A stretch of DNA of 64,000 nucleotides, from assembly GCF_018143015.1 (NCBI RefSeq), contig NC_054752.1, forward strand, positions 2,542,001-2,606,000, written 5' to 3'. Numbering within the stretch: position 1 is the stretch's first letter; each line of letters begins with the position of its first letter. The translations under genes were made by a program, and so were the position numbers. This DNA comes from Lytechinus variegatus (lineage: Eukaryota > Echinodermata > Echinoidea > Temnopleuroida > Toxopneustidae). The notes beneath the pieces were generated by a model. The model did not search any database. It was not told where the DNA came from and saw only the letters and a program-made list of their open reading frames with translations. This document shows, one piece after another, positions 26,641-45,600 of the stretch.

Positions 26641-26675
<35 letters not shown>
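26641..26675. repeat. Poly-C homopolymer, over 30 bases
   Basis: Near-uninterrupted C run. The Pro-rich and Gly-rich open frames across it are artefacts. It lies about 290 bases upstream of the TATA box of the downstream gene. Confidence 0.9.
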
Positions 26676-26969: not shown

Positions 26970-27152
26970 CCCACCCTAAACACGGAAGAAAGGTTCACAA
27001 CATAAAATGGAACTGTAATTTTTGAACGTTCCACAGACTGAGGAGACATTCAGACTATTAACGTCGTGGGACTGGGCATTCGATAAACATTTTACCCGGA
27101 ATAGTGTGTCGATTGTTTGCAACATCAACCTGGTATAGATTTAACGCAAATC

Positions 27153-27377
27153 ATGGGTTTTGACACGAAACAAGTGCAGGTGAAGCTGACCGCTGGTCGC
27201 ACCGTTCGCATCCCCGTAGTTGCGGCGATGACGACCCAACAGTTATGCGAGAAGGTGGCGGAAGAGGAGAAAGCTCCCGCTGATGTCATTACTCTCAAAT
27301 TCGGTGGTAAGGTCTTGAAGAGGAGCAAGACGATGTATGATTATCTTGTCAGGGAAGAGATGGAACTAAAAGTGAAG
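27153..27377 (+). CDS. Ubl-vWA gene, coding exon 1 (first ubiquitin-like domain)
   Basis: ATG in the context AATCATGG; donor GTGAAG|GTACGT. 75 residues cover nearly the whole beta-grasp fold. An open frame extends 5' of the ATG without another ATG. Confidence 0.92.
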
Positions 27378-30300
27378 GTACGTATCCAGGCCCCAAATCT
27401 AATACATTCATGAATCATTCATTAATTGGTTGCATTGTGTTATCTGTTACTATACTGAGACAGAAAACCGACATGTTTGAGGAGTTACGTTACTTTTTAA
27501 TTGTTTTAGTTCTCCTCAGACCAAAAGCTTCCTATATTTCTCCTGTTTGCTGGTTGTTCCATTGAACTACATTGCATGGCTCTCTGCTTACAATTTCAGA
27601 AATAGAACTTTTAAATAAATCCCAGGACTAGAAACTAATGAGTTTCTATAGTCTCGGGTAGCCTGGAGGCTTCTGGGGAGTAAAAGTCATCTACTAACGT
27701 AGGCTTACTCTGATGACTTATACTCCCCAGAAGCCTCCAGGCTAGTCTCGGGTGGCTGACAGAAAAATAATTTTGTGAATAATTGTTTGGCCTATATGGG
27801 TACTCCAGATGGTTTTCAAGCTGTTTCTTAATTGCCTGAATTATAAACAAGTCTACCCAAATTTTCATTGATTTACTCTACCTCCCTGCAATAAACACCT
27901 TGAATTTTAACCCATGGAACTCCCGCCCGCGAGCCCAGGACCTTACCGTGTAATTGACCATACTCACGGGACTAGCTTGATTTATGGTCTAAATATTTCT
28001 CCAAATGACTTGTGAAAAGAGAAATTATGCACTTACCATGATTGTATGGATGAAGGTCTAACGAGTGGCAGTTTTCCTGACATCTGGGCACAGACTGGAA
28101 CCTCAAAAAAATGAAAAGTTCTCTCCTACCCCCGTCTCGATCGGCCATTTTTGTTAAGAATTGCAACAAAATGGCCAATCAAAACGGGGGTAGAAGGAGA
28201 GAACTTTTCGTTTCAATAAATATGAATGAAAATTGAAATTGTATTTTGACATTTTATTCTTTCAGCTTTTGGCAAAAGAAACTCTGAACATCAACCTGCA
28301 TCTTCCTGGTAAGGACAAAGAAGTCGTCTCAGTGAAGATCAACAATACATCATGTCACTCAGAAATTAAAACAAAGCTGGGAGAAGCAAAATCACATCTT
28401 GCTGGGAAATACACAACCTTTCATGTAAGTAACTTCATTTCAAATTATTAGAATAACAAAATCCCAGAAATGTCAGTGATAAGGATGAAAATAGCCATAT
28501 TCAAATTATTTAGAAAAATAGAGATAGTTTAGCGACCATCAGCCAAGGAGGACATTAAATGATTATTAACATTATCATTATTATCATGATTACTCTTATT
28601 ATTTTCTATCATTATTATTATTGTTGTTATTTGTACTACCCTTATCCTATAAGGCCGAATCAATTATATGAAAATGTATGATCTTAGAAATAAAAACTCC
28701 AAAAAGGTGGGTTCTTAATGTCTTTCTGAGATGAGAAAGTTGTGTCATGCTGCTGCGCCCCCATTATTTTGTAGACAAATCCCGAATCTCTTATGTCTAA
28801 ACTTCAAAGAAACTGGACTACTATACAGATAAAACATGATTAAGGCTTCCTTTTCTGTTGCAATCTTGAAGATCAAAATTAATTTACATAGGTGAGAAGG
28901 AAAGAAGGAAATCAACAACATGGTTTTGCAGGAGATTCTTATTCTTGAGACTGTCAAACGAAACTACATGTAATGTCCGGCTACGTTCGTTCTAAGTTTT
29001 GGATCAGCGTTCAGCGCCATCTTAACTCAACAATTTTACGTGAATTTTAATTCCATTTTGTGTTTGTAGATTGGCAACATGGAGCTGAAGATGACAGACT
29101 ATGCCTATGAAGACTGTCTGAAGGACGAAGAGAATATCATTGTTAAATTCCCTAATGATAATCAGGGAACAGAGGAAGAAGAAATGCAGGAAGATGAGAG
29201 ACAGGTTTGTTTGAAAAAAAGATAAGCTTTTATCCCCCCCCTGTCTATCAATTTCTTTTCTTACTATTATGTGCATTATGAGAGATACATACCCGTAGTT
29301 TTTTTTTAATAAAAGAAATCGTGATTTCACTCCTTGGGCGTAGATAGATGCATGACATCATGCTCTTCAATCTTGCAGATGACATACTATATCACCCCCC
29401 CTCCCTCGCCCAAACCTGAATGCTGCTTTAATCTATGCCAGTGTTTCACCCCTGCTGTAGAAATTACGAACGATTGATCTTAAGTAAAAGGTAAACAATA
29501 TGAATGAATTGATATGAATTAAAAAACAATCAAATGAAGGAGTATTTATTCTTTGAAAGCTACCATGTCCATTATTTGTTTTATCCACGTTTTATTTTTG
29601 CCAGGCAATTTGTATGAATTATGAACTATACCTGTCTTCTTTTTCTAGATATTTTAATCCCCCTCATTCACCTCTCATATACATCAAGATTAAATTGAAG
29701 TGTGAATTTGTTGTAAAGAATATTGGAATATTAGTCACTTATTATTTTACTTCAATTTGTTTCAACAGGAAGTCCTGAACAGCTTTGCATCGAGTATGTC
29801 CTCACGACGGAAAGTGGATATTGTGTTTTCCTTTGACACTACAGGAAGCATGTATTCTCTTTTATCAACGGTAAGGTCAAATCCAAGGTCACTTTGTAAT
29901 TGTATCACATCAATGTACATCTACTGTATGGCCTGTTCCATAATACTTTTATGATAACAAATTTGCAATAACAATTGAAAGCTACGTTCATCTGATTGGC
30001 TGATATAATCTTGTTTTAGAAATTATGCGTTTATTTCTTGAAGAAGTCTTTATGAAATCCTGGTATCCTGGTATGAGTCAGTGAATAAAAAGAACCATTT
30101 TGATGTTGATTTCTGAGGCGGTTCCTGTCTGACCTAAAAGTTTGCTTTTATTATTAGTAGAACTGTGTTTTTATTCTGAATGCTGGACAAATAATAAACT
30201 GCCTTTAACTCTTTGCCCGCTTTGTTAGACTACAGTCACATACAGCAGACTGCCAAGTTCGACTAAAGGCCACCGCACACCTTACGATTGTTTGTGATCC

Positions 30301-33300
30301 GATTTTGGAACAAATCGCATTTTGCTCATTTTCTGAAAATTTGAATGGAACATATCATTTTATTTAAGGTTAAAATTAGTTGAAAGAATACTAATATAAC
30401 CATTTTGAAAGATTGCAAGCCTTTATGTTTTGGAGTAAAGGCCAATTTAGTTTCAAATCGTAGCCAATTGTACGACTGCTATGACGTCATTACGACTAGA
30501 TATTAAAATTGCTTTTATTTTAAGAAGGATAGCATAGTTTGAACATAGGTATTCGCATGATGATTTAGAACATTACACAATAAGATATTCCAAGTCTCAA
30601 TATTAGCATCAAATTCTACTACATTTTATTCTGAAATCGGGTCGCAGACCAATCGTAAGGTGTGCGGTCGCCTTAAGCTCATTTTCACATTCACATTCTA
30701 TTCACTATACACACAGAGCTTTAATAATAAAGTTTATTGTTCATAAACACATACAAAATTGTGATGCATGCATCACATTGTCATTATACCATATACACAC
30801 AAAGCTTTTCTTTACAATTAACTAATCAAAAGCTATTGTGAGCTGAATTAGTATAGTCCATGTAAAACCCCTTTTAAATTTGCACCTTGAAATAAATGTG
30901 GCGCAGGAGTGATTTTGTCCATGGCGGGCAAAGAGTTAAACCAAAGATTGTAAACTTCCTGTAGTGTATATGATTCATTCAATCAGTGGTACGTGTAATC
31001 CTGTCTGATGGACCACTTCCTGAATCTGATATATCTTGGTATAGTGGTCCATGAACCTGCATGCAGTAGCCAGTAATTATGAGATCAATTTACGATATGA
31101 TAGTTGTGATACTACTACCTTGTAGATCAACCATGCATAACTTGTTTGAGTGTAGAATTCACTGTTAAAATATATAATGTGTAATTTTGTATTTGTTAAT
31201 CTTCTTTCTGTATAAGGGAGTCTTCACAGGTCTAAAAGGTGCTATATAAAAATGTGATTTTTATTTTCCTGTTATTATCATTGTTGTTATTATAATTATC
31301 ATTATAGTTATTACTGTTATTACCATCATCATTATTGTTATTGTTGTTGTTATTATTATTATTGTTATCATTATTATTTTTATTATTATTAGTAGTAGTA
31401 ATAGTAGTAGTATTATCATTATTATTATCGTTATTATTATCGTTAACACAGGAGCGCCAAATCCGAGAGAAATTGCGAGAGTCTGTTACCCGTCTCATGT
31501 CAGACATACCAAACATTCAGATCGGCCTGATGGCTCACGGAGACTACTGTGACGAGCACTCATATGTCATCAGAAAACATGACATCTCAGCAGATATGGC
31601 TGATCTGGTCCAGTTTGTACAAGCTACTGAGGGCAGCGGAGGCGAAGGACCATTTGCTGTAAGTCTTTAATGACAAACTGTCTGTCGTATCATGTGATCC
31701 TCAAATTGGCAAGCATGCTTCAAAATGATGGATTTTATGGACAGCTCTCCGTTGTGCACAGTATTTCAGGTTTTTCCCCTTGATTTGGATTATCTGCACC
31801 TGACCTTGACATGTAGAAACTTACTTAGCTTGTAATGGAATCATATAGCTTTGCAGGGGTGTAATAATGAGCTTATTGCTATCAAAAGTTTTGGTCAGTT
31901 TGATTTATTAATTGCCTTTGCGATTCCCTAATTTGAAAAAGTGAGACGATGATTTATTAAACCATATCTACCTTGATCAATTGTAAAGTAAATTCAAGAA
32001 TCTAAAATCCTTCGTACAGTATGTAGAAAACAATAATATTTGGTTCCAAAGAATGTAAAGGATCTTGTCAAGCTTATTATGCATCAGCTCATAGCCTGAG
32101 ATGATGACATCAGTATCTTCTAAAGATCTCCAAAGCGAATTCACTGGTAAATAGTTGTAGCCCAGTGGATAATTAATCTAAGGGCTTTGAAAGGGAAAGT
32201 CGTGGGTTTGAATTTCAGCTGCATGTGGCGTATTTTCCTTCAGCAAGTAATTTATCCTCATTGTACGCTCTCAACCCAGGTGAGGTAAATGGGTACCTGG
32301 CAGGCATTGATTCTTCAACACACTTCTGCAAGCTGTAAGAGGCTGCTATGCTGAAGCTGGGATAGTACATCTAAGTACGTTCCTTTGGAAGTGCATCATA
32401 GTGTGTTATAACTTTATACAAGAACTGTATATTCATTTGTATTATTTATCACAATTTCCTTTGAATTTTACAGTGCTATGAATGGGTTCTGAGACATGCC
32501 AATGGTTTATCGTGGAGAGAAGATGCTGCGAAGGCTTTGGTCATCATCGGGGATGTCGTGCCACATCCTCCCTCATATACAGACATCAATATCAACTGGC
32601 GGGATGAGCTGCAAGAGCTGTGTGACAAGGACATCAAGGTAGATACTGTTCTTCAAAGCTGCTAGATTCGTCAGTGGCACTTGTTGTTGCATGGTGTCTT
32701 TCACTCTTATTTTGATGTAGATGCCTTGTGCATCCTGTGAATTGTTATATGGGCAATACAGTTATTAATAACAGTATCATGTAGGATATCAAGGTAGATA
32801 CTGTTCTTCAAAGAATTCATCAGTGGCGCTTGGTGTTGATGTATTCTTTAAACTATTGTCTCAAATGCTATAGGTGGCTAAACACTAAGCATCTTTTGCC
32901 ACATCATACGACCATCACATTTTCCAGATATGAACAATTTTACTGTTGACCTACCATTGTTTATTTATGGTACATGTGTAAAGCCTTGTCTGCTTTTGGA
33001 AAGTGCTTACTGTATTTTCAGAATGGCTTCTTGGGTCAGATCTTTTTTCATTACAAATGTCTATTATGTGAGCAAAACGAATATCCATGTGGACAATAAA
33101 ATGAAATTGAATTTGAATTGAATATACATGCTCCTATATCCTGTTCCTGTCTCCATTTATACAAACATAAATCAAAGGCATGTCCCTTTAGCGTAGAAGC
33201 TGATACTATTTGGAAAGCTATATGATATTGTTTCTAGCTACTATCCTTTGTCTTCTTCTTTTTTATAATCAGGTGTATGGTGTTCAAGCGATGGATAATA

Positions 33301-35553
33301 GGCCAGCCAACTCTTTCTATGGTCACATGGCACAGAAATCAGGTGGTGCTCACATCAAATTCCAGCATTTCTCATTAATTACAGACATGTTCCTTGCAGG
33401 TAGGTTTTAAAGCAACATATTTGGTAAAGGAGTATATGCTATCCCTCTTTTGATAAGAGTGGCTACCAGTTCTTTTTCCTTCTAAACTTACCCTAAAATT
33501 TGCTTGCTTTTTCTCCTCAGTGATCTACTTGTAGTATTTCTCTCGATTTTTCTTGAAACTGCTGATTGTTTGACTTTGTAGGAATCAGTCCAACAAGGTT
33601 CTAGATATGATTGCATTAATACCTAATTAGGCCCTTTGAAGTCAGTGTATTATTGACCTTGTTCTAAATGTGTACAATCAGGCCAATTGTACATTGGTTA
33701 AGTCTGATCTTCCATAGGGGCCGCGGAACGGTTTTGAAAGTGAGGGGGGGGGGGGGCTGACCACGCAAAAAATCACAATCAGATGGTTGTTTTTACGGTT
33801 TTGGAAAAAAGTTATGGGGGAGGGGGCTGAAACTCTGTGGGGCCCCTGTTCCATGACTAGATAAATCTTCTTCGTTAAAGTAATATTTCAGACCAGGGTC
33901 CCGTAACACAAAGTTTTATAGCGATTGATCGTATGCTTGATTTTCACGATGGATTGTAAATTGTAGTCAGTGGAATATTGTAGAAAAATGTTCTACAATC
34001 ATTGTCAAGCTTTGTGTTACGGGCCCCTGATTAAGACAAAGATGTGCAATTCTTTTTCTCGAAGCTAAACTTCCCTAAATCAGACACATTTATGTGATCC
34101 CAACTTCCCAAGAGATTTGACTCTGTATGAATATCGGTTGTGATTTTCGCCATCCCCTTGTTTAGTGTGCTACAGAGAATCCGGTGATGACCAACTGAAG
34201 GCCTACGTCGACGAGGTCGAGAAAGAAGGGAGAATGACGGAAGAAATGAAGGATGTCATGAAGCAGCTGGAGAAGAAACCAGAGGAAGAGGAGAAGAAGG
34301 ATGAGGAGGAGAAGGAAGAGGAGGGAGAGGAGGGAGAGGAGAAGGAGAAAGAAGGAGGAGCATCGGCAGATGCAGCGGGAGATGCCGAGGTTGCAGCACC
34401 AGCTCCAGAGCGCCAACAGGTATTAGTTTGTACTTTGTATCTTTGCATCACGAGTGTAGTGGTTCTAACTCTCGTCTTTCAATCAGAATGTCATGGGTTC
34501 AGATCCTACTCCGGGCCAGGCGCCTATTACCTTAAAGGTCAAGTCCACCTCAGAAAAATATTGATTTGAATCAATAGAGAAAAATCAGACAAGCACAATG
34601 CTGAAAATTTCATCAAAATCGGATGTAAAATAAGAAAGTTATGACATTTCAAAGTTTCGCTTATTTTTAACAAAATAGTTATATGAACGAGCCAGTTACA
34701 TCCAAATGAGAGAGTCGATGATGTCACTCACTCACTATTTCTTTTGTTTTTTATTGTTTGAATTATACGATATTTCAATTTTTACGAATTTGACGATTAG
34801 GACCTCCTTGTCTGAAGCACAAAATGTTAAAATAATGGAATTCCACGTGTTCAGGGAGGAATGAAACTTCATTTCACATGACAATGACAAGAAAATACAA
34901 ATATTTCATATTTCATATAATAAAATACAAAAGAAATAGTGAGTGAGTGATGTCATCGACTCTCTCATTTGGATGTAACTATAGGGATAATAAAAGCTAA
35001 ATATATAGCAGCATCTAGAAATAATCAATTTTGATCCATACTATTATTTACGGTATTATTATTATGTCGGCTTTTGTTTGAGCTGCCGTTTCCAGTGCTG
35101 TGTATTCAAGGAATACCCATTCACCTCACCTGGGTTGAGTGCAACACAATGTGGGTAAGTTTCTTGCTGAAGGCAAACATGCCATGGCTGGGATTTGAAT
35201 CCACTGCCCTCTGATTGAATTGAAGACTAGAGTCAGAACCACTAGACCACTATGCCCACATGGTAAATTATATGCTGTCACTACACGAATAGTACTAATT
35301 ACTGATTGATATTTTATTCAGTTTTTGTTTTTCCTTCTTTTTTCCCCTCTTTATTCAGGAAGTGGAATATGTTTCGGAGCCATGGTGGGACCTGACCTTA
35401 GACACGGCAACAATGCCCAAATTCACATATAACAATGTCAATGACTTTTGGTCAAGATGTGGCCAACCAGCAGCTGCCAACAACTTCGATCGAAGAGCAA
35501 CAAGAAAGAGTTCAAGGAGAAAGACCCTAAAGAAGGCCTGTTCAGTGATGTGA
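27153..35553 (+). CDS. Ubiquitin-like x2 / vWA domain / CaaX-tail protein (nine coding exons, complete)
   Basis: Coding exons are 27153-27377, 28266-28424, 29070-29204, 29769-29870, 31452-31658, 32474-32638, 33273-33399, 34166-34419 and 35359-35553 (522 aa). All junctions are GT/AG; only the seventh intron is not phase 0. Residues 7-75 fit a ubiquitin-like fold (LKFGGKVLKRSKTMYDYLV matches the LIFAGKQLEDGRTLSDYNI part of ubiquitin). Residues 76-165 look like a second, diverged one. Residues 189-380 are a vWA domain: VDIVFSFDTTGSM (MIDAS D196, T198, S200), IPNIQIGLMAHGDYCDEHSY, ALVIIGDVVPHPP (D303), VYGVQA and ITDMFLAVCYRES. This resembles the vwkA-type vWA family. Residues 381-458 are Glu/Lys-rich, probably coiled or disordered. 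The tail is polybasic and ends CSVM, a CaaX-type prenylation motif. No signal peptide or membrane segment is visible, so a cytosolic, membrane-tethered protein is inferred. I do not recognise a named gene. Confidence 0.92.
27659..27744. mobile_element. 86-bp hairpin insertion with perfect 8-bp target duplication
   Basis: Arms TAGCCTGGAGGCTTCTGGGG... pair with the right arm over about 33 bases with one mismatch, leaving a ~20-base loop. GTCTCGGG flanks it on both sides (27651-27658 and 27745-27752). It lies in intron 1 of the Ubl-vWA gene. It is either a tiny MITE or an internal-deletion remnant of a TIR transposon. Confidence 0.85.
28050..28210. mobile_element. MITE fragment related to 18142-18358
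   Basis: It shares GGATGAAGGTCTA, CCTGACATC, CAGACTGGA and AAGTTCTCTC-type words with the other copy. An internal inverted pair, GTTCTCTCCTACCCCCGT and ACGGGGGTAGAAGGAGAGAAC, is visible. It lies in intron 1 of the Ubl-vWA gene, ending about 55 bases before exon 2. Confidence 0.75.
28266..28424 (+). CDS. Ubl-vWA gene, coding exon 2
   Basis: Acceptor TTTCAG|C and donor TTTCAT|GTAAGT, phase 0, 53 residues. It starts the second ubiquitin-like region (LNINLHLPGKDKEVVSVKI). Confidence 0.9.
29070..29204 (+). CDS. Ubl-vWA gene, coding exon 3
   Basis: Acceptor TTGTAG|A and donor AGACAG|GTTTGT, 45 residues. It completes the second ubiquitin-like region (NIIVKF), then an acidic linker EEEEMQEDERQ. Confidence 0.9.
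29769..29870 (+). CDS. Ubl-vWA gene, coding exon 4 (MIDAS motif)
   Basis: Acceptor CAACAG|G and donor TCAACG|GTAAGG, 34 residues. It carries the FSFDTTGSM metal-site motif. Confidence 0.93.
30262..30676. mobile_element. TIR element, GCACACCTTACGA family, copy 2
   Basis: AAAGGCCACCGCACACCTTACG on the left (in part) pairs with CGTAAGGTGTGCGGTCGCCTT on the right (in part). It is a full-length match to 1897-2312. It lies in intron 4 of the Ubl-vWA gene. Confidence 0.88.
31255..31445. repeat. (ATT)n/(GTT)n trinucleotide microsatellite
   Basis: About 190 bases of ATT, GTT and ATC triplets ending a few bases before the exon 5 acceptor of the Ubl-vWA gene. Open frames of poly-Leu/Ile and poly-Asn here are artefacts. 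Confidence 0.95.
31452..31658 (+). CDS. Ubl-vWA gene, coding exon 5
   Basis: Acceptor AACACAG|G and donor TTTGCT|GTAAGT, 69 residues with MAHGDYCDEHSYV. The acceptor abuts an ATT microsatellite. Confidence 0.93.
32148..32410 (+). mobile_element. tRNA-derived SINE
   Basis: A-box-like TAGCCCAGTGGATAA and B-box-like GTGGGTTTGAATTTC lie 40-50 bases apart, followed by a body with CTCAACCCAGGTGAGGTAAA and GGTACCTGGCAGG. It lies in intron 5 of the Ubl-vWA gene. Confidence 0.75.
32474..32638 (+). CDS. Ubl-vWA gene, coding exon 6
   Basis: Acceptor TTACAG|T and donor ATCAAG|GTAGAT, 55 residues with CYEWVLRHANGLSW and VIIGDVVPHPP. The donor region is duplicated 155 bases downstream. Confidence 0.93.
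33273..33399 (+). CDS. Ubl-vWA gene, coding exon 7
   Basis: Acceptor AATCAG|G and donor TGCAG|GTAGGT, 42 residues plus one base. It encodes VYGVQAMDN and SLITDMFLA, the end of the vWA core. Confidence 0.93.
33894..34029. mobile_element. Short hAT-like MITE with CAGGGTCCCGTAACACAAAG ends
   Basis: The right end CTTTGTGTTACGGGCCCCTG mirrors the left. The flanks TTTCAGAC and ATTAAGAC match at 6 of 8 bases. A fragment with the CCTTTGTGTTACGGGGCCC end lies near 15445-15465. It lies in intron 7 of the Ubl-vWA gene. Confidence 0.8.
34166..34419 (+). CDS. Ubl-vWA gene, coding exon 8 (acidic linker)
   Basis: Acceptor GTTTAG|T and donor CAACAG|GTATTA. It begins with VCYRES, then about 80 residues of Glu/Lys-rich sequence encoded by GAG/GAA-rich DNA. 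That is the same composition as the local purine microsatellites, so the linker length may vary between alleles. Confidence 0.92.
34440..34530 (+). mobile_element. tRNA-derived SINE head, truncated
   Basis: A-box-like TAGTGGTTCTAACTC and B-box-like GGGTTCAGATCC in tRNA spacing. It is cut off by the MITE that follows at 34531. Confidence 0.75.
34531..34985. mobile_element. MITE, AAGTCCACCTCA family
   Basis: It begins TTAAAGGTCAAGTCCACCTC and carries TTTCATCAAAATCGGATGT. The inner arms around GTTACATCCAAATGAGAGAG are mirrored near 34960-34980. It abuts the SINE head on its left. It lies in intron 8 of the Ubl-vWA gene. Confidence 0.7.
35090..35262 (-). mobile_element. tRNA-derived SINE, inverted
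   Basis: Read on the minus strand it starts GGGCATAGTGGTCTAGTGG, with B-box-like GTGGATTCAAATCCC, then a body with CAACCCAGGTGAGGTGAAT. It lies in intron 8 of the Ubl-vWA gene. Confidence 0.8.
35359..35553 (+). CDS. Ubl-vWA gene, coding exon 9 (polybasic tail, CaaX, stop)
   Basis: Acceptor ATTCAG|G. 64 residues, beginning EVEYVSEPWWDLTLD and ending RKSSRRKTLKKACSVM then TGA. Confidence 0.92.
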   Translation, partial: EVEYVSEPWWDLTLDTATMPKFTYNNVNDFWSRCGQPAAANNFDRRATRKSSRRKTLKKACSVM

Positions 35554-37960
35554 AATGGAGAATGGTATACTTAAATCAAGTTCATTTCATCATTAAAAAA
35601 AAAGAATTCAATGCAACACTATAAGCTCTGTTTTGTGTTAGCGGACAATTGTTGAGGTAAAGACACCAATGACTTTCATGCTTTTGTATCAGCAAAGATA
35701 ACCCTAGGAGGAAGACATTCAACCAAGTAGTTGAGGAGTTATTGTTATTCAAATTTGACAAATTATATATTACTTCAAAGTTTAGGATGTGCTTTATCAA
35801 ACTCAATAAAAATCTCAAAACGTTTATTTTGGGCAACTTATTGTTAGTTTCAGAATTGTAATGATAATTGACTTTTTTATTGTGTAACGATTGGTGACTT
35901 CTAATGAAGTAAGGGATAAGCAATATATATGCATATATAAGTGATATATCTTATTTATCAATATGTGATAACTTTTAAAATTGAATTTCTTAATTACTAT
36001 ACAAATCAACTGTTCAACATAATATGTTTTTTGCTTCAATTATTCTTTTCCAATATTGTACTGCCATGAATTTCATTCGTCATGGAAACAATGTTTTTTT
36101 TATGTTGAAATGAAATCCCTGTTGAGGGGAAAATAAATTTAATAATGAATATGTAATATGTTATTTGTCAGATGTCATTCTTGATTGATCTGACACCAAT
36201 AACTTCTGTTCTTATATACTCCTTCTGTACAAGGGAAATTTCCTTAAGAATTTAAGAAATGGCTGCTTGATGGTTTGAAATGAAATTCCAAAGTTTGGTT
36301 GCTTTGTGAAGAAATATCAACAATTGGAATAATTGGCTAATACACAATACTTAATTTGATACTTAGCAGGGTATTCTATTGGCTAATATATTGTACTAAT
36401 AATGCAGAGGGATTACCCTTAATATAAGCTTTGTCGGTTTCAGTATATCTGTCAATTATAAGTCATAAGTATTTTTATTATTTAACACCCAGCCTTTGTT
36501 AAAGGTGCACAAGCTCGTGAATGCATTTAACAACTGATGTTCTGTATCACTAATTCCTGTGCATTCATGTGCAGTAGCGTATGCAGGGGGGGGGGGTTAC
36601 AGGTATTCAAACCCCCTCTTAAATGTATTTTGATACCCAATTGCCCCAATAATTCACTCCCCCCCCCTACAATTTTTATGAAGGCTTTTTTTTTTAAATG
36701 CTTGTCAAAACGTTTGTTGTTACATTTTTTTTGGGTAGGAAACGACCTAAAATTGAAGACCTTTTTTTTTTGGGGGGGGGGGTTGTCAGCATTTCATTAG
36801 TTTGAAATCCCCCCTTTAACAAATCCTGCATATGCTACTGTTCCTGTGTAAGTGTTCTAGATGATTACAGTAGAATGCAGCAAACAAAATTGGAATTGTA
36901 TCATCTTCTTGTAAATATATGAAATTATGTTATTGCTTGCCATACATTCACCATTAATATGATTGCACTCATAGAGTGTGGTGTATCTCAAAGGTTATGA
37001 AGTATTTGAAATATATGCAAAACTTTCATCCAAATTTAAACATTGCCAGTATAATTTATACATGTATATATTTCTTCAGCAGAATTCGTTCAAATTCAAA
37101 CATTGCCATTTCAGAGTATACATGTATGTCAGATATTACTTCATATCAAAGGCCAGTTATAAATTACTTAAGCTGAAACTTTCATTTTTTTAGAAAGAAA
37201 CTAAACTTGGCTAATAATTAGTATTTTATTGTTAAGTTATTGTGTGCCTGTCTTTCTATTAGGAGAGATTTCAGTGCTTGATTGGCCATTATGTGCAATT
37301 CATTTGTGTGTGCAGTTTTGATGCGAGTCTTCCAAATTAACTATTGGTGTTTATAAAGAGAGGCTTTGACTTTCTAGGACTGAATTCATGCATTATCAGC
37401 AGCAAGCCGCAAGTTATTGTTTTAGGCTACTGACACCATGCAATTCGACAAGTGAAAAAATCAAGTCGTAGACTTCTATAGCAATTGATATTGGTTATAA
37501 ATCTTTTGAAAAATATTCTTGATCTGTATGTTTGCTATTTTACAATGTATTTAAGTACCATAATTATTCTTTTTATTAATCATTTTTCAAAAGCATAACT
37601 CGGAATCATGGGATGCATTTCTTTATATAATAAGAAGATCTTTTATTTCAACATTAGCAATCTATGTAATAGATATGATATATTTATACTGCCAGCAATC
37701 ATGATGGTATGTGCATGTTTTATGTCAAATAAGAAAATATTTGTCTATAGGGATCATGCACTTTATGTATGTCAGATATACTGGTCAAACAAAAAGAAGT
37801 CATATATAGAATGTAGATTTTTATTTATACATGGTATATTATTTGTATAGGGCCTATATGCACGTTTTCTATATGTATAAGTTTGTCTTTGTCTTTTCAG
37901 TGTCAGTCATTCTTTTGAATATGTTGATAATATCTGTAAATAAATGTACGTTTTATACAT
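35554..37960 (+). other. Probable 3' UTR of the Ubl-vWA gene
   Basis: AT-rich sequence without exons follows the stop codon. Candidate poly(A) signals are AATAAA at about 36131 and at 37939-37944. The second is followed by GT-rich sequence and would give a ~2.4-kb UTR. A hAT-like element (36572-36840) lies inside. Confidence 0.45.
36572..36840. mobile_element. hAT-like MITE with near-perfect 8-bp duplication
   Basis: Left end CAGTAGCGTATGCAGG and right end CCTGCATATGCTACTG. The flanks TTCATGTG (36564-36571) and TTCCTGTG (36841-36848) match at 7 of 8. Eight-base duplications and CAG...CTG termini are hAT hallmarks. Same family as 20669-20918. No transposase. Confidence 0.88.
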
Positions 37961-38680: not shown

Positions 38681-39473
38681 GGTGGGAGGAAGAGGGAAAG
38701 AGAGAGATCGAGAGAGAAAATAAGCCAAGAGAAAAGGAGGTATGAGGGAGGGGGTAGCTGGATGGATGGTATAGGGCAATACAAAGAAAGTGGCAGGTAA
38801 GGAATAGGTTATAGTATTTTTGTTACGAACATGAGACTTGAATAGTGGCAGAAAAAATAAATAGATAGACGAGGAAAGTGACATTGAACATTCAACATTT
38901 TCTTCGATCTTAAATTCTATTAAGAATCTGTCCTGCAATACCCTATATGATATTGCAATATAAGTCACTCTGCATGAGTCATCATAAAAAAATTAATGGC
39001 ATGTCTTTTGCAAATAGTGTGGGTTTACTAGCTGTTTGGAGGCTCATTAAGATGTGCAAAATCCCTCGGACCCCCCCTGTGATTTATCTATGGGATTTTA
39101 ATACTTTCATAATAGCAGACGACGATTATCTATGGGGCGCCATGATCGATGGTTTTATAAATGTGTTTCAAATTTTTAATCTGATACTAGTCTAGTACTT
39201 GAAAACAAATATTTTTTTAATCAAGAACCATAAAATATAAATTACAAATCAAAATGATAAAAGCTGAAGCACGGAGAAATAGACTAGGTCTTGGAAATGT
39301 AAAATTAAATGAAATGTATTCGGTATGTTCTCTAAACTAAACATAAACAAAACACACGTACAATCGGCACTCGATCTTCAATTGCATGTGTTGCGCTGAC
39401 CGACTTTTAAATTTGCTGGCAAAACCTGTCTTGGAATACACGGGTTGTATACACGGGAAATATCTATTTCACC

Positions 39474-39683
39474 ATGTCTATTATCGTGAGGAACTTTCAG
39501 AAGTCGGTGGCCTTTAATCTAGAAAAGATGAGAACTGACTTGAAAGCACTTCGTCGAATTCTTCGCGCAGAAAGATTTGATGTTTCAGTGATATGCGTGG
39601 AAGATAAAGACATCAGAGAAATGAACAGGATTTATCGGGCCACAGATGAACCTACGGACGTTCTCGCGTTTCCTGCCCACGAG
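39474..39683 (+). CDS. YBEY: YBEY coding exon 1
   Basis: ATG in the context CACCATGTC; donor CACGAG|GTAAGG; 70 residues through PTDVLAFPAHE. Confidence 0.96.
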
Positions 39684-42600
39684 GTAAGGCGCATAATAGT
39701 GACGCTACCCGCTACTCATGAAGAGAGGTGGCGCGCAATTAACATGCCATTGTTATTGTAAATTTTGTAATGCCGATGAATAGTTGACAAAAATGCCGGC
39801 ATCCATTCCCAGTCGGAATATTGAAGTTGTCAGAGATTAAGACAAAAAGTAAAGTAATAACTAATATTGAGCATTTTTTTAATGATTGAAAAGGAAAGTC
39901 ATAAAAGTGAAAACAGAAGTGAGATGAGAAGAAGGAGGAGGAGGATAATAAGAAGAATCTTGAAGAAGGAGATGAAGAAGAAGGGGAGGAAGAAGGATCA
40001 GGATGAGGAAAGAGGAGGGGGACAAAAAGAAGGAAGAGAAGAAGAAGAAGAAGAGGAGGATGAGAAGAAGAAAAAGAAGAGGAGGGGAAGGAGAAGAGGA
40101 GGAGAAGAAGAAGGGAAGAGGAGAAGGAGGGGGAGGAGGAGAAGAAGGAGGAGAAGGAGTATAAAAAGATAAAGACAAGAAGAACAAAGTGAAAAGGAGA
40201 AGAGTAGAAGATGGAGTAGGACTCAATGAGCATGAGGAGCTGGAGCCTTAAAAGGAAGAAGAAGAAAAAAAAGATACTAGCAAGTAGCAGTACTACATGT
40301 ACATGTAGTACGTAATTGGACTCAGGCGGGACTTCCAAGAAGAAGAAGAAATAGGAAAAACATTTACGGTAGAATAAGTATGAAGATCAAACTCAGGATG
40401 GTTGTACATAGGCCTGGGACTAAAACCCGGGTACCCGGGTCCCGCCGGAAGCGTCGGGTACCCGGGTAGAAAAATCAATAGCCGATACCCGAAAATTGCT
40501 CACCAGTATAACGTACATTTGATTTGTATTGCGTAGTGTAAGACATGATTGTAAACTCATCACAAAAGTACACAAGTCTCATTTTGAATCTCACCAATTA
40601 CCCTCGAAATATCCTTAAATATACTAGTTTTTCAAGTGTTGATGATGTGACTGAGATCGTTCAATCGTCGCCATGTTTTTTTTGAAGCGCAGTGACGTCA
40701 TCCAGCCACTGCGACGCAAGCCAATTTATGAATGAAAATATAGTAAGCATGCGCATTGCAAGCCTCAGCCCCACCCACGCAGTATTCCGTCAAAACAAGT
40801 TTGCAATACTCTGTCACCTCGTACCAAAATCGACCTAGAATTCCACTTTCCTTTATTTCATATGAATTATGAAAGGTATTCTCAGAGGATCTGTTTTCTC
40901 ACCGATACCACGCAAGTAAGGAAATTTTATTACTTCTTGCTTTTCCGTCAAAATCTTACGAAGTAGCGTCGATGTTGCATCGTGTTTGTTAGTTTGTAGA
41001 ATCTATCGCTACGTGAACAAAGTCAATTGATTTCCGGGTTTCGGAGCATATGAGGCGCCAGCCAATCACGTTCTTGATACCATTTTCAGTTCATCATAAA
41101 CCGAAAATGGTAACACGATCGTGATTGGCTGGCGCATTTGACGCTCCGAAACCCGGAAATCGATTGACTTTGTTCACGTAGCGATAGATTCTACAAACTC
41201 ACGAACACGATGTAATATCGACGCTACTTCGTAAGATTTTGACGGAAAAGCAAGAAGTAATAAAAATTTGCTTACCAGTGCGGTATCGGTGGGAAAACAG
41301 ATCCTCTGAGAATACCTTTTATAATTCATACAAAATATAGAAAAGTGGATTTCTAGGTCAATTTCGGTACGAGGTGACAGAGTATTGCAGACTCGTTTTG
41401 ACGGAACACTGCGTGGGGCTGAGGCTTGCAATGCGCATGCTTACTATATTTTCATTCATAAATTGGCTTGCATCGCATTGGCTTGATGATGACGTCACCT
41501 ATGGGGTTTTTCCACCAGTCATATTTCGAGCGACATGATTTTCGGGTACCCGGGTACCCGCCCGAAAATTACCACGGGTACCCGAAAAGAAAAAAACCCG
41601 AAAGTCCCAGGCCTAGTTGTACATGTATGTACTACAAATGTACCATATTGTATTACCATTGATTGATTCAAATGATTGCCTTCTTCATGTACTTTCTAAG
41701 AAAAAGGAGATTAATAACAACAACAACAACTTATTAATTAAATAGAAGTTCAAAAGTGAAGAAACAGAGGATGTTCAGAAGAATGGAGTGTTATGTTTAT
41801 TACTTTAAGAATAGTTGGCTCTACATTCATGTGAAGTTTATTGCAATAGTGTGCAACTGATTTTATCATCTACATGTATGCTTGTACAAAGCTGCCAAGT
41901 AGTATGGATTTTCAGTATTTAGTACTGAAAAATAAGAAGAATACTGATGGTTTCATGCAAAATACTGATTTCTAAAGTATCCGTTTCATGTGTTGTCTTA
42001 TGGTATTTCATTGAAAATACTGATGTCATCATCAAAATACTGATTTTCAGCTTTAAAAATACTGAAATGCAATTTTTTCAAGTTGGCAGCTCTGCTTGTA
42101 CTGTATATTGTATAATTCCCTGGTAGTATGCTGTGCTGCACGTACTGTATGTCCTTGTAGTGACTTTGAAGGCAATTGTCTGGTGGGTGTGTTCCAATTC
42201 TTGCTTTGTGATTGGATAGCTTTGTAGTACATGCCTCCATACATTTTCAGACAATAAACAAAACTCTGTAATGTAAACATAAAAACCTGTGACATTTGCA
42301 CACTCAAAGATTGCCTCAATTGCAGTCCTTAATATTATAAACAGTTTACAGTATGTACTGCACTTGAATTTCCAAACCAAAATTGAGCAAATTATTTTCA
42401 TACTATTTGGGTAGTAGGCCTACTTTGAAATTGTTTTCAATATTTGCATTGCCAAAAGTTAACAAGTAAATTTTCAAGGGAATGAAAATAAAGTTAATAC
42501 TGGAACACCATGGCTGAGGGCTTCAATATAATTCATGGGATCGCACTTTAAATTCCTTGTTAAATCTGGTGCATAATGATACAAAATTATTGTGCTTCAT

Positions 42601-45600
42601 TGAATTCATTCAAGTATGAATAATTAATTGCATGTTTTGCAAAAATTTTGCATTCGTGGATTTTTTTTTTATAAATGTTAAAGTGTAATTATTTACACAA
42701 AAACTACATAGTCCATAGATTGTGGTACAGTGGAAACCACCAATTATATTTGTTGGACTTTGTTGGTCAGACCAAGCCCAGTGGAATTGCTACATGTAAA
42801 CTCTAACTGCATACCCGGTACTAATCAGAGAAAAATTGTGCATTAAATGATTGTTACAGCTTTTCTCAGAAGTTATACATAGGCCTATACGTTAAATGAT
42901 GGTTACAGCTTTTCTTAGAAGTTATACATAGGCCTATATGTTAAACTGCAAATACTTTCATTTTTCTTCAAGAAAATTCATCTTTAAGAAAAATGGACAT
43001 GTACTACCCAGTGAGTGTACTATCTAATACCAGGTAGGTATGTGTTTTCATGACTAGATGAAGCTAGCAAATGTGGACAATTTATGATAGCACCTTGGCG
43101 TAACAAAAATCTCTGCGATGTGGAGCCCATCAGTTGGAATCTGACCTGGTTCAATTTCTTTTGCCTGTAATCCTTTTGGGTGGATTCCTGAATGCTGTGA
43201 AGCTGTATAAATGTGGATCTAACTAATGTAAAACTATGTACTGCACATGCATGTATCTTATTAAATAGTAAGTGTTCTTTTATTTGAGTGCAGTGCATGC
43301 AATAGGATGTACATGTACATGTACCTGTATGTTAACACAGGTCTACCTCTACTTGCATGTAACTTCAGACATTTAGTGACTTTGTTATGACCTCCATGCC
43401 CGGGGGGGCCACTTACATTGACGAGTGGATACCATGCGCGACCAAAAAAACACGTAAAAAGGATGTCCTTTTCACGATAGGGCACGTTACGTATGTAACG
43501 TGAAAAGGGTGTCAAAAACACAAAAATAATGAAAAAAGGGTATCTATTTCGCTAGGAAAATTACGTGTTTAGGGTCGAATTTGCGGGGATGATAAAACAA
43601 AATTAAAATGTTTTATAAAGGATGTCTTTTTTGCCCCAACACTACGTGTTTAGAGTCCTATTTGCGCGAGGTGTAGAAGGTGGGGTCGTACTAAACCAAA
43701 TAAGGTAAAGCCGACAACCAAAGGACCCGTAACAATAAAACATTCCTGTACTTGTTTAGGGGTTCATTTCAGGGAATATTTGCCAAGAGTATCGTTTTGT
43801 TTCCAATACTTGTTAAGGGTAGGGTTTCACACGCCAATACTTGTTAAGGGGTGCATTTTCAGAATATGGAAATTACGTGTTTAGGGTTCTTTTCGAGACC
43901 CCATGGTCACGCATGGTATCCACTCGTGAATGGAAGTGGCCCCCCGGGCCTCCATGGCATTGTAAATATGTATTGTGGGTGTGTCGGTTGCTTGCTTTGT
44001 GATTGGTTAGCCATGCACACACCTCCAAACAATACACAGTATTGTAAACACACCTCTTTGTACAGGACAAGATTCTGTCTATGTGTCAGGGGGGGGGGGG
44101 GGTTGGGGGGATGATATCAACTCGACAGAGTGATAAATAACAATGCCTGGAAGTGGAATTTACTGTTACCATTACTTTTTTGTTGTTGATTGCATACACT
44201 GTATACTGTACATGTATGATTTGCATTACAGGTGTATACATACAGGTACTTCACTAGTTTTTAACACTCTAAATATATTTGTCTAGGGGTCTAGTGCCAG
44301 ACATAATTTTTTCTCTCTTTATACATTATTGCTGAGACAGAGGGGTTCTTTGTTTTATTTTTCACTTGATATACATGTACACTGTACACTACTAGGTCAA
44401 TGCCAAACTTGCAGTGTGGTTGTCATGAGATGATAAGCTCCAGTCCTTACCAGCATCAGTAACGTGTACTATTCATGGAAGGGAGTTCAATTTAGGAGAA
44501 AATGAAAGAAAGAATGAAGGAGTGACTGAAAAGACAGAACAAAAGGGGAAAAGGGGAAAGAAAGATCTAACGGTAAACAGAATATAAGGGAAAATTATAA
44601 AAGAAAGAAAAGAAACTGAAGTGAAGGACAGGAGGAGAGAATTAAAGAAGGAAATGATGAAGGAAAAGGATGAAGGAAAGAAAGAATGAGGGACACAATA
44701 TTTTGTAAGTTTCAAGATCCGCCCTTTCTCTCTCTCTCTGTTACTCACTCACTCACTCCATTTTTCACTCTCCTCATCTCAGAATTTAAAGCCAGGACGA
44801 CTGCCAGACCCCTGGAGTGACTTAGCAGACTTGGGAGACATGTTCCTTGGGATGGAGTATATTGAAAGGGACTGTGCCAAACACAGCTCAAATATTGATG
44901 ATGTCCTGCCGGTAAGATGTACACCTCTATCCTCTTCTACATGTATGCTATTATTAAAGGGTTGCTCCGGATTGAAAATATTTGTATCTAAATAAATAGA
45001 GTAAAATTCACGAAGCAAAATGCTGAAAATTTCATCAAAATCGGATATATCAAATAACAAAGTAATCAAATTTTAAAGTTTAGCAATATTTGATGAAAAT
45101 ATTTACATACATTATATGCACGTCATTAGGAATATTCATTGGTGGGCAGATGATGTCACATCCCTACTTTCCTTTTTCTTATGTTATTACATGAAATCAT
45201 ATGAGTGAACAATGTGTCTCCTTTAACCTTTATAATGAAATAATTTTCAGCAACTTAATTAAAATCTAATGCATCAGTGTTCAATCCAATATTTTTTTAG
45301 TTCGTGGTAGAAAAAAATTGAATAAACTTTTATTTCATACCGGTATATAATAAAATGCAAAAGAACAAGTGGAGATATGATCATCAAATTGCTCATTGAA
45401 TATTCATGAAGACATGCATGCGTAGAACTAAAATGCCATAACTTTGTTAATTTTTGTCTGATTTCGATCAAATTTTCTGCAAGTGACTTGCATAAAACTA
45501 TTTTTTTCTCAGAAAATTTATTCATGTATCTTTTAATTGGAGCAGTGTTCACACTTTTTTTGCATATATACATGTACATGATGTTACAAATCGAAAAATT

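Follow-up and report, generated by a model that had tools for sequence, protein, structure and literature searches.

Exon structure of the gene

We analysed a window of 64,000 nucleotides from Lytechinus variegatus (assembly GCF_018143015.1, contig NC_054752.1, positions 2,542,001 to 2,606,000 of the forward strand). Nine exons at window positions 27153-35553 (+), rebuilt from the sequence, form one frame of 522 amino acids and 1569 coding bases. The predicted protein starts with a ubiquitin-like domain, possibly followed by a second one, continues into a von Willebrand factor A (vWA) domain in the same frame, and ends in a basic tail with a CaaX box. This order of parts had been read in an earlier note on this DNA, with the ubiquitin-like folds as a tandem. 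More than that tandem, the central surprise is the vWA domain, which is of a prokaryotic type and has lost a metal-site motif. The features are listed below by window position.

27153..27377 (+), exon 1: residues 1-75, ubiquitin-like domain 1
28266..28424 (+), exon 2: residues 76-128, start of a possible second beta-grasp (~80-157), with GT..AG sites
29070..29204 (+), exon 3: residues 129-173, end of the possible second beta-grasp, then an acidic linker
29769..29870 (+), exon 4: residues 174-207, start of the vWA domain, with DTTGSM (first metal-site motif) at 29835-29852
31452..31658 (+), exon 5: residues 208-276, vWA, with AHGDYCD (HGDYCD at 31536-31553) and SGGEGPFA at 31635-31658
32474..32638 (+), exon 6: residues 277-331, vWA, with VIIGD and the last metal-site Asp, D303 (codon 32552-32554)
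33273..33399 (+), exon 7: residues 332-374, end of the vWA core
34166..34419 (+), exon 8: residues 374-458, last part of the homology to vWA, and after it an E/K-rich linker at 34273-34359
35359..35553 (+), exon 9: residues 459-522 and the stop, with a basic tail at 35491-35535 and the CaaX box CSVM at 35539-35550
35805..35810 (+), AATAAA polyadenylation signal, read from the sequence

All eight introns run from GT to AG and are 564-1581 bases long, and seven of the eight splice joints are in phase 0, the seventh joint being in phase 1. No other in-frame ATG lies between the start ATG at 27153 and an upstream in-frame stop at 27102, and the polyadenylation signal follows the last exon, all of which bears out the nine-exon frame. 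Random segments taken from elsewhere in the window, with the lengths of exons 1, 2, 3, 8 and 9 (20,000 draws per exon length), are open in a given frame in 1.9, 5.6, 8.8, 1.3 and 3.4% of the draws, respectively. The gene model thus looks sound and the gene is apparently real. The acceptor of exon 5 (31452) reads CAGGAG, a tandem acceptor, and therefore a variant protein without E208 is possible.

We searched the genome (869.6 Mb in 33 contigs), in which the window lies on a contig of 35 Mb (C13). The protein finds at least 8 places in its own gene, exon by exon, and then at least 17 polyubiquitin places with E values of 0.009-0.043. Close paralogues were rejected, since beyond the own gene only polyubiquitin places are among the matches listed, and the gene hence appears to be single-copy. 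The NCBIfam scan of the protein gave no meaningful match.

The vWA domain and its relatives

Pfam VWA (PF00092) matches residues 190-358 with an E value of 5.3e-4 and 20.7 bits, which is below its cut-off of 23.8. The domain belongs to the vWA superfamily through its bacterial relatives, with which it shares 43-51% identity, usually over ~220 residues (best 80 of 138 relatives). The DTTGS, HGDYCD and VIIGD blocks pointed out earlier are all present. The scan of genome contigs confirmed 138 relatives among 183 pattern matches, and the best 80 of the 138, classed by record title, comprise 62 from cyanobacteria, 16 from Myxococcota, one from Ktedonobacteraceae and one from a Harrisonbacteria metagenome-assembled genome. 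We also found 37 phage records matching the vWA domain, the best being Virus Rctr197k (39% identity, E value 1e-48), and 8 plasmid records with weak matches (25-32% identity). The IMG/VR scan gave 32 loci, 31 of them at 33-49% identity and one at 28%, with 13 on contigs longer than 200 kb. Conserved patterns, FDTTGSM and AHGDYCD among them, seeded the genome-contig and IMG/VR scans, and selection therefore accounts in part for how constant the DTTGSM and AHGDYCD motifs are among the relatives.

When the relative from Fischerella (L059) is searched against the Lytechinus genome, it finds exons 5, 6, 7 and 8 of our gene, exon 5 best at an E value of 3.1e-16 and exon 8 at 0.1, and the next place (contig C12) has an E value of 0.67 with a stop inside. 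Other vWA exons in the genome were recognized by Pfam (19 PF00092 and two VWA_4 matches), none of them on C13. Four relatives were run against Pfam: L059 (51% identity) and L112 (45%) pass VWA_4, L051 passes both VWA and VWA_4, and L027 stays just under the cut-off (26.5 vs 27). A profile search of PDB with the vWA alignment returned 19 sequences at E <= 1 with a best E value of 0.1, and 16 of the 19 are integrin beta. Judged by its sequence, the domain is a real vWA, not of the usual animal kind, and belongs with a prokaryotic and phage vWA family.

No alpha-kinase family was found in the Pfam scan of the protein at E <= 10, and the three alpha-kinase matches in the genome are all on contig C10, none on C13. 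We compared 863 reading-frame records from bacteria and viral contigs (112 relatives and their surrounding frames, in overlapping sets) with a local ubiquitin-like profile. None matches at E <= 0.1, and a link to bacterial ubiquitin-like systems is thus unsupported. No relatives of the first or of the second ubiquitin-like region were found in the viral contigs.

A lost metal-site motif and a missing C-terminal domain

We counted the vWA motifs over 106 relatives, after dropping 6 of the 112 frames that were short, without DTTGSM or identical. The third motif has the commonest form TGGGDAPECYE in the relatives and reads SGGEGPFACYE in our protein. The glutamate of PE is kept in all 106 relatives and is Ala here (A276), and the Asp three residues before it, kept in 103 of the 106, is Gly here (G273). 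The protein retains DTTGS, D303 (the Asp of IGD) and the aspartates of HGDYCD. In integrin-beta structures the Asp and Glu of DxPE presumably hold metal ions; this analogy, together with the weak integrin beta matches, suggests that the two residues are metal ligands. A complete integrin-beta-like metal site (DxTxS, the D and E of GGGDxPE, and IGD) is therefore not present, with both residues of its middle part replaced.

Two more features set the protein apart. It has a three-residue insert after DTTGSMY found in none of the 106 relatives, and it lacks the C-terminal QSTS motif (in a domain of ~120 residues) present in 102 of them, which places it outside the vWA-QSTS family proper. A search of the genome with L059 reported nothing for its C-terminal half at E <= 10, and the C-terminal halves of L059, L027 and L112 match no Pfam family at E <= 1.

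The unnamed C-terminal region of ~120 residues in L027 and L059 ends in FVQSTS..FLYEV, and the C-terminal part of phrog_26613 matches residues 243-346 of L059 (E value 4e-21) and 241-353 of L027 (2e-24). In 43 of 58 cyanobacterial loci (L059-L117 without L112), the neighbourhood of the vWA gene includes a reading frame that belongs to a single cluster common to these loci; in Fischerella (L059) it lies just downstream of the vWA gene and is an NAD-dependent DNA ligase. Their proximity could possibly reflect a functional link or mere shared ancestry.

The ubiquitin-like domain of exon 1

Pfam ubiquitin (PF00240) matches residues 8-73 with an E value of 1.2e-6 and 28.6 bits, above the cut-off of 25.4, so this domain is a member of the family. 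In phmmer, residues 7-75 align without gaps to residues 2-70 of ubiquitin, 21 of the 69 being identical. The first 75 residues are hence related to ubiquitin, as proposed earlier, while an alignment with ubiquitin's second half alone is ruled out since the match spans the whole ubiquitin domain.

The AlphaFold2 model, built from an alignment that includes seven viral ubiquitins, has strands at 6-11 and 17-22, a helix at 28-39, a strand at 46-50, a short helix at 61-64 and a strand at 71-76. Its predicted local distance difference test (pLDDT) score, taken in blocks of ten, is 57-84 over residues 1-80. Foldseek places the modelled domain on ubiquitin with a template modelling (TM) score, relative to the target, of up to 0.93 and a root-mean-square deviation (rmsd) of ~1 A. 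The structure check of residues 1-75 called for in the earlier note thus finds a beta-grasp. A single-sequence model of residues 1-173 has a mean pLDDT of 45, the blocks of domain 1 reaching only 30-67. The alignments A5 and A7 were left unused for folding because viral ubiquitins were placed inside the vWA domain.

Most ubiquitin receptors use the I44 face of ubiquitin. The positions of L8, I44, H68 and V70 are T13, K49, K73 and K75 in our protein, and the receptor face is therefore gone and basic in domain 1; T13, K49 and K75 stand where a binder of the hydrophobic patch would meet L8, I44 and V70. A conjugatable modifier would end in Gly-Gly. The positions of G75-G76 are taken by E80-T81 and the chain runs on, so domain 1 is not conjugatable in the usual way.

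A possible second ubiquitin-like region and the C-terminal tail

The model continues with strands at 81-87 and 95-101, a helix at 106-120, strands at 125-129 and 132-136 and a helix at 141-146, which is a beta-grasp-like order, with low block pLDDT values of 30-52 over residues 81-160. Several Foldseek alignments to linear di-ubiquitin cover 111-141 columns, mostly with rmsd values of 5-13 A, which is a weak point in favour. On the basis of this model, a second beta-grasp domain at ~80-157 is plausible.

The protein ends in KKACSVM, and its E/K-rich linker leads into a tail rich in lysine and arginine, whose final 24 residues include 9 K/R against 1 D/E. The CaaX tail noted earlier is thus present as CSVM, with the cysteine C519 behind a basic stretch. 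Given the composition of the protein itself, the chance of such a CaaX box at a random end is ~0.0015. A CaaX box with Met as X predicts a farnesyl group, from which we infer prenylation of the C-terminus and a membrane location of the protein.

Flanking sequence and other ubiquitin-like frames in the genome

Downstream of the gene, an exon of a YbeY endoribonuclease lies at window positions 39411-39758 (+) (Pfam YbeY, E value 1.3e-9), and one more exon could lie at 44690, in a reading frame with no Pfam match at E <= 0.01. A run of 32 C lies upstream of the gene at 26644-26675.

Contigs C1 and C14 encode five frames (L172, L173, L174, L176 and L177) of one ubiquitin-like protein, a multi-copy family, one of the five being tested in Pfam. 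Their ends read GR(L/M)(R/M/L)GGKD(Y/N)MHR(A/V)GFV before the stop, i.e. Gly-Gly and a short tail. Gly-Gly also stands at the end, or close to it, in other ubiquitin-like frames: L179 (LPLKGGK and stop), L183 (LRGGSQ and stop) and L181 (LPLKGGK, reading on).

Comparison with known systems

The prokaryotic and phage vWA-QSTS proteins (Fischerella, Nostoc, Myxococcus, Virus Rctr197k and IMG/VR contigs) share with our protein the vWA core and the motifs DTTGSMY, AHGDYCD and IGD..PH, but those tested have neither a ubiquitin-like match nor a CaaX end. Ubiquitin, ISG15 and FAT10 have the ubiquitin fold in common with residues 6-76, and perhaps with the second beta-grasp, whereas our protein has no Gly-Gly end, has lost the I44 patch and carries a fused vWA domain. 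UBL3/MUB proteins are membrane-anchored and, like our protein, combine a ubiquitin fold with a CaaX prenylation motif. UBL3 is a single small domain, whereas here the ubiquitin fold and the CaaX box are separated by a long acidic linker as well as a vWA domain. The Dictyostelium alpha-kinase vwkA has a vWA motif by its description, and our protein has no alpha-kinase domain.

Rpn10/PSMD4 has a vWA domain for protein docking with reported ubiquitin-like partners, and we take its vWA domain to be of a different subfamily. The Pfam scan of our protein at E <= 10 found no ubiquitin-interacting motif, a short motif that is easily missed. The pairing of a vWA with a ubiquitin-like domain has a precedent, since the Rpn10 vWA domain is reported to bind the ubiquitin-like FAT10 (PMC4453063). 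One review brings up the vWA domain, the ubiquitin-like domain and domain architectures together (PMC7344625).

Proposed role and alternative explanations

Our analysis suggests, at about even chances, that the protein is a farnesylated, membrane-tethered, cytosolic adaptor, itself unconjugated, with a degenerate vWA metal site. The basic farnesylated C-terminus (CSVM) would hold the protein at a membrane. Domain 1, probably together with a second beta-grasp, would stay unconjugated in the usual sense, and domain 1 presents a basic instead of a hydrophobic face. Like the Rpn10 vWA, the vWA domain would probably serve to dock proteins and depend on metal weakly or not at all. We favour docking over a metal-dependent adhesion module because the vWA core is kept and the full metal site is not, and because domain 1 has neither Gly-Gly nor the I44 patch. 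The prenylation, the membrane location, the adaptor role and its partners, as well as the loss of metal binding, are predictions from features of the sequence.

Several observations weigh against this adaptor. Domain 1 is modelled poorly without the seven viral ubiquitin rows. E272, adjacent to the position of the lost Asp, might make up for it in metal binding, and our residue comparisons cover prokaryotic and viral relatives only. For the second region, the sequence search of PDB gave no match at E <= 10, Pfam gave a weak WWE match alone (E value 0.069), and the two ubiquitin-like regions do not align to one another. Out of 5000 shuffles of the residues of the second region, counting those that were scored, 218 of 4662 reach the real score against a nine-domain ubiquitin-like profile, which is not significant, and 808 of 4726 do so when domain 1 is left out of the profile. 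Of the tandem folds in the earlier note, the first therefore stands, and the second (76-165) is not established, with its low pLDDT and no significant sequence support.

An alternative explanation, for which the chances are only a little short of even, is that this is an ordinary conserved invertebrate protein, already predicted in other animals under an automatic name such as vwkA-like; that such proteins carry this name is our assumption. The gene is intron-rich and single-copy as far as found, and it lies on a 35-Mb contig with a YbeY gene as neighbour, which speaks for this reading. However, our literature search found no paper joining the vWA domain, ubiquitin-like and CaaX, none with 'alpha-protein kinase vwkA-like', and none combining ubiquitin-like, von Willebrand factor and vwkA, bearing in mind that annotation mostly never reaches papers. 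The architecture would be a fresh combination of known domains, unless it has already been catalogued in other animals.

It is unlikely, though not implausible, that the vWA domain came into the animal lineage from outside, with a cyanobacterium, some other bacterium or a large phage as the donor. Its C-terminal partner domain would then have been lost, and the introns, the ubiquitin-like domains and the CaaX box would have been acquired. The identity of up to 51% to cyanobacteria, against an E value of 0.67 at the best other place in the own genome, points this way, and a free quick tree of 106 rows places the vWA domain of the window inside Nostocales. But its branch is long (1.55), and without four long-branched viral rows, constraining the 58 cyanobacterial rows together to the exclusion of the window gives a likelihood that is 10.3 higher, with a p value of 0.68 in the approximately unbiased (AU) test; the same constraint on the cyanobacteria plus 16 myxobacteria gives an AU p value of 0.682. 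We dropped a claim of transfer from the tree placement because the constraint test did not uphold it. The three introns within the vWA domain and its divergence argue for age. The rows of the tree other than the window are bacterial and viral, and the bacterial ones were picked by similarity.

A prenylated scaffold, as envisaged in the earlier note, would recruit ubiquitin-binding or proteasome factors through its ubiquitin-like domains and bind another ligand through a metal ion in the vWA domain. We consider this improbable. The ubiquitin-like fold, the vWA domain and the CaaX box are all present, and so are DTTGS, D303 and the HGDYCD aspartates. But the recruitment is weakened by T13, K49, K73 and K75 at the I44-patch positions, and the metal-dependent face by the change of GGGDxPE to GGEGPFA, which puts Ala in place of a Glu common to all 106 relatives and Gly in place of an Asp shared by 103 of them.

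We speculate, giving it a slim chance, that an animal lineage acquired a bacterial or phage vWA domain, did away with both its metal site and its C-terminal partner, and placed it by fusion between tandem ubiquitin-like domains and a farnesylated tail. The product would be a membrane adaptor whose vWA domain is the cis target of its ubiquitin-like domains, a one-chain counterpart of FAT10 and the Rpn10 vWA.

That exons 1-3 and 4-9 are two adjacent genes wrongly joined is very improbable: the exon 3/4 joint does lie in the linker and none of the 863 relative and neighbour records matches the ubiquitin-like profile, but frame and phase are continuous, the splice sites fit the consensus, the intron between exons 3 and 4 has just 564 bases, and exon 3 runs to its GT donor without a stop.

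Returning to the adaptor, a ubiquitin-like signalling part and a probable membrane anchor are joined in this protein by a vWA domain whose kind we otherwise encountered only among prokaryotes and viral contigs, the other collections searched. The bacterial and phage family is widespread (138 relatives in one scan) yet has no name in the libraries searched, its Pfam matches being to general vWA models. If the animal form is conserved, it would serve as a natural experiment on whether a protein can do without the metal site and the I44 patch, and it would give this unstudied bacterial and phage family an animal counterpart.

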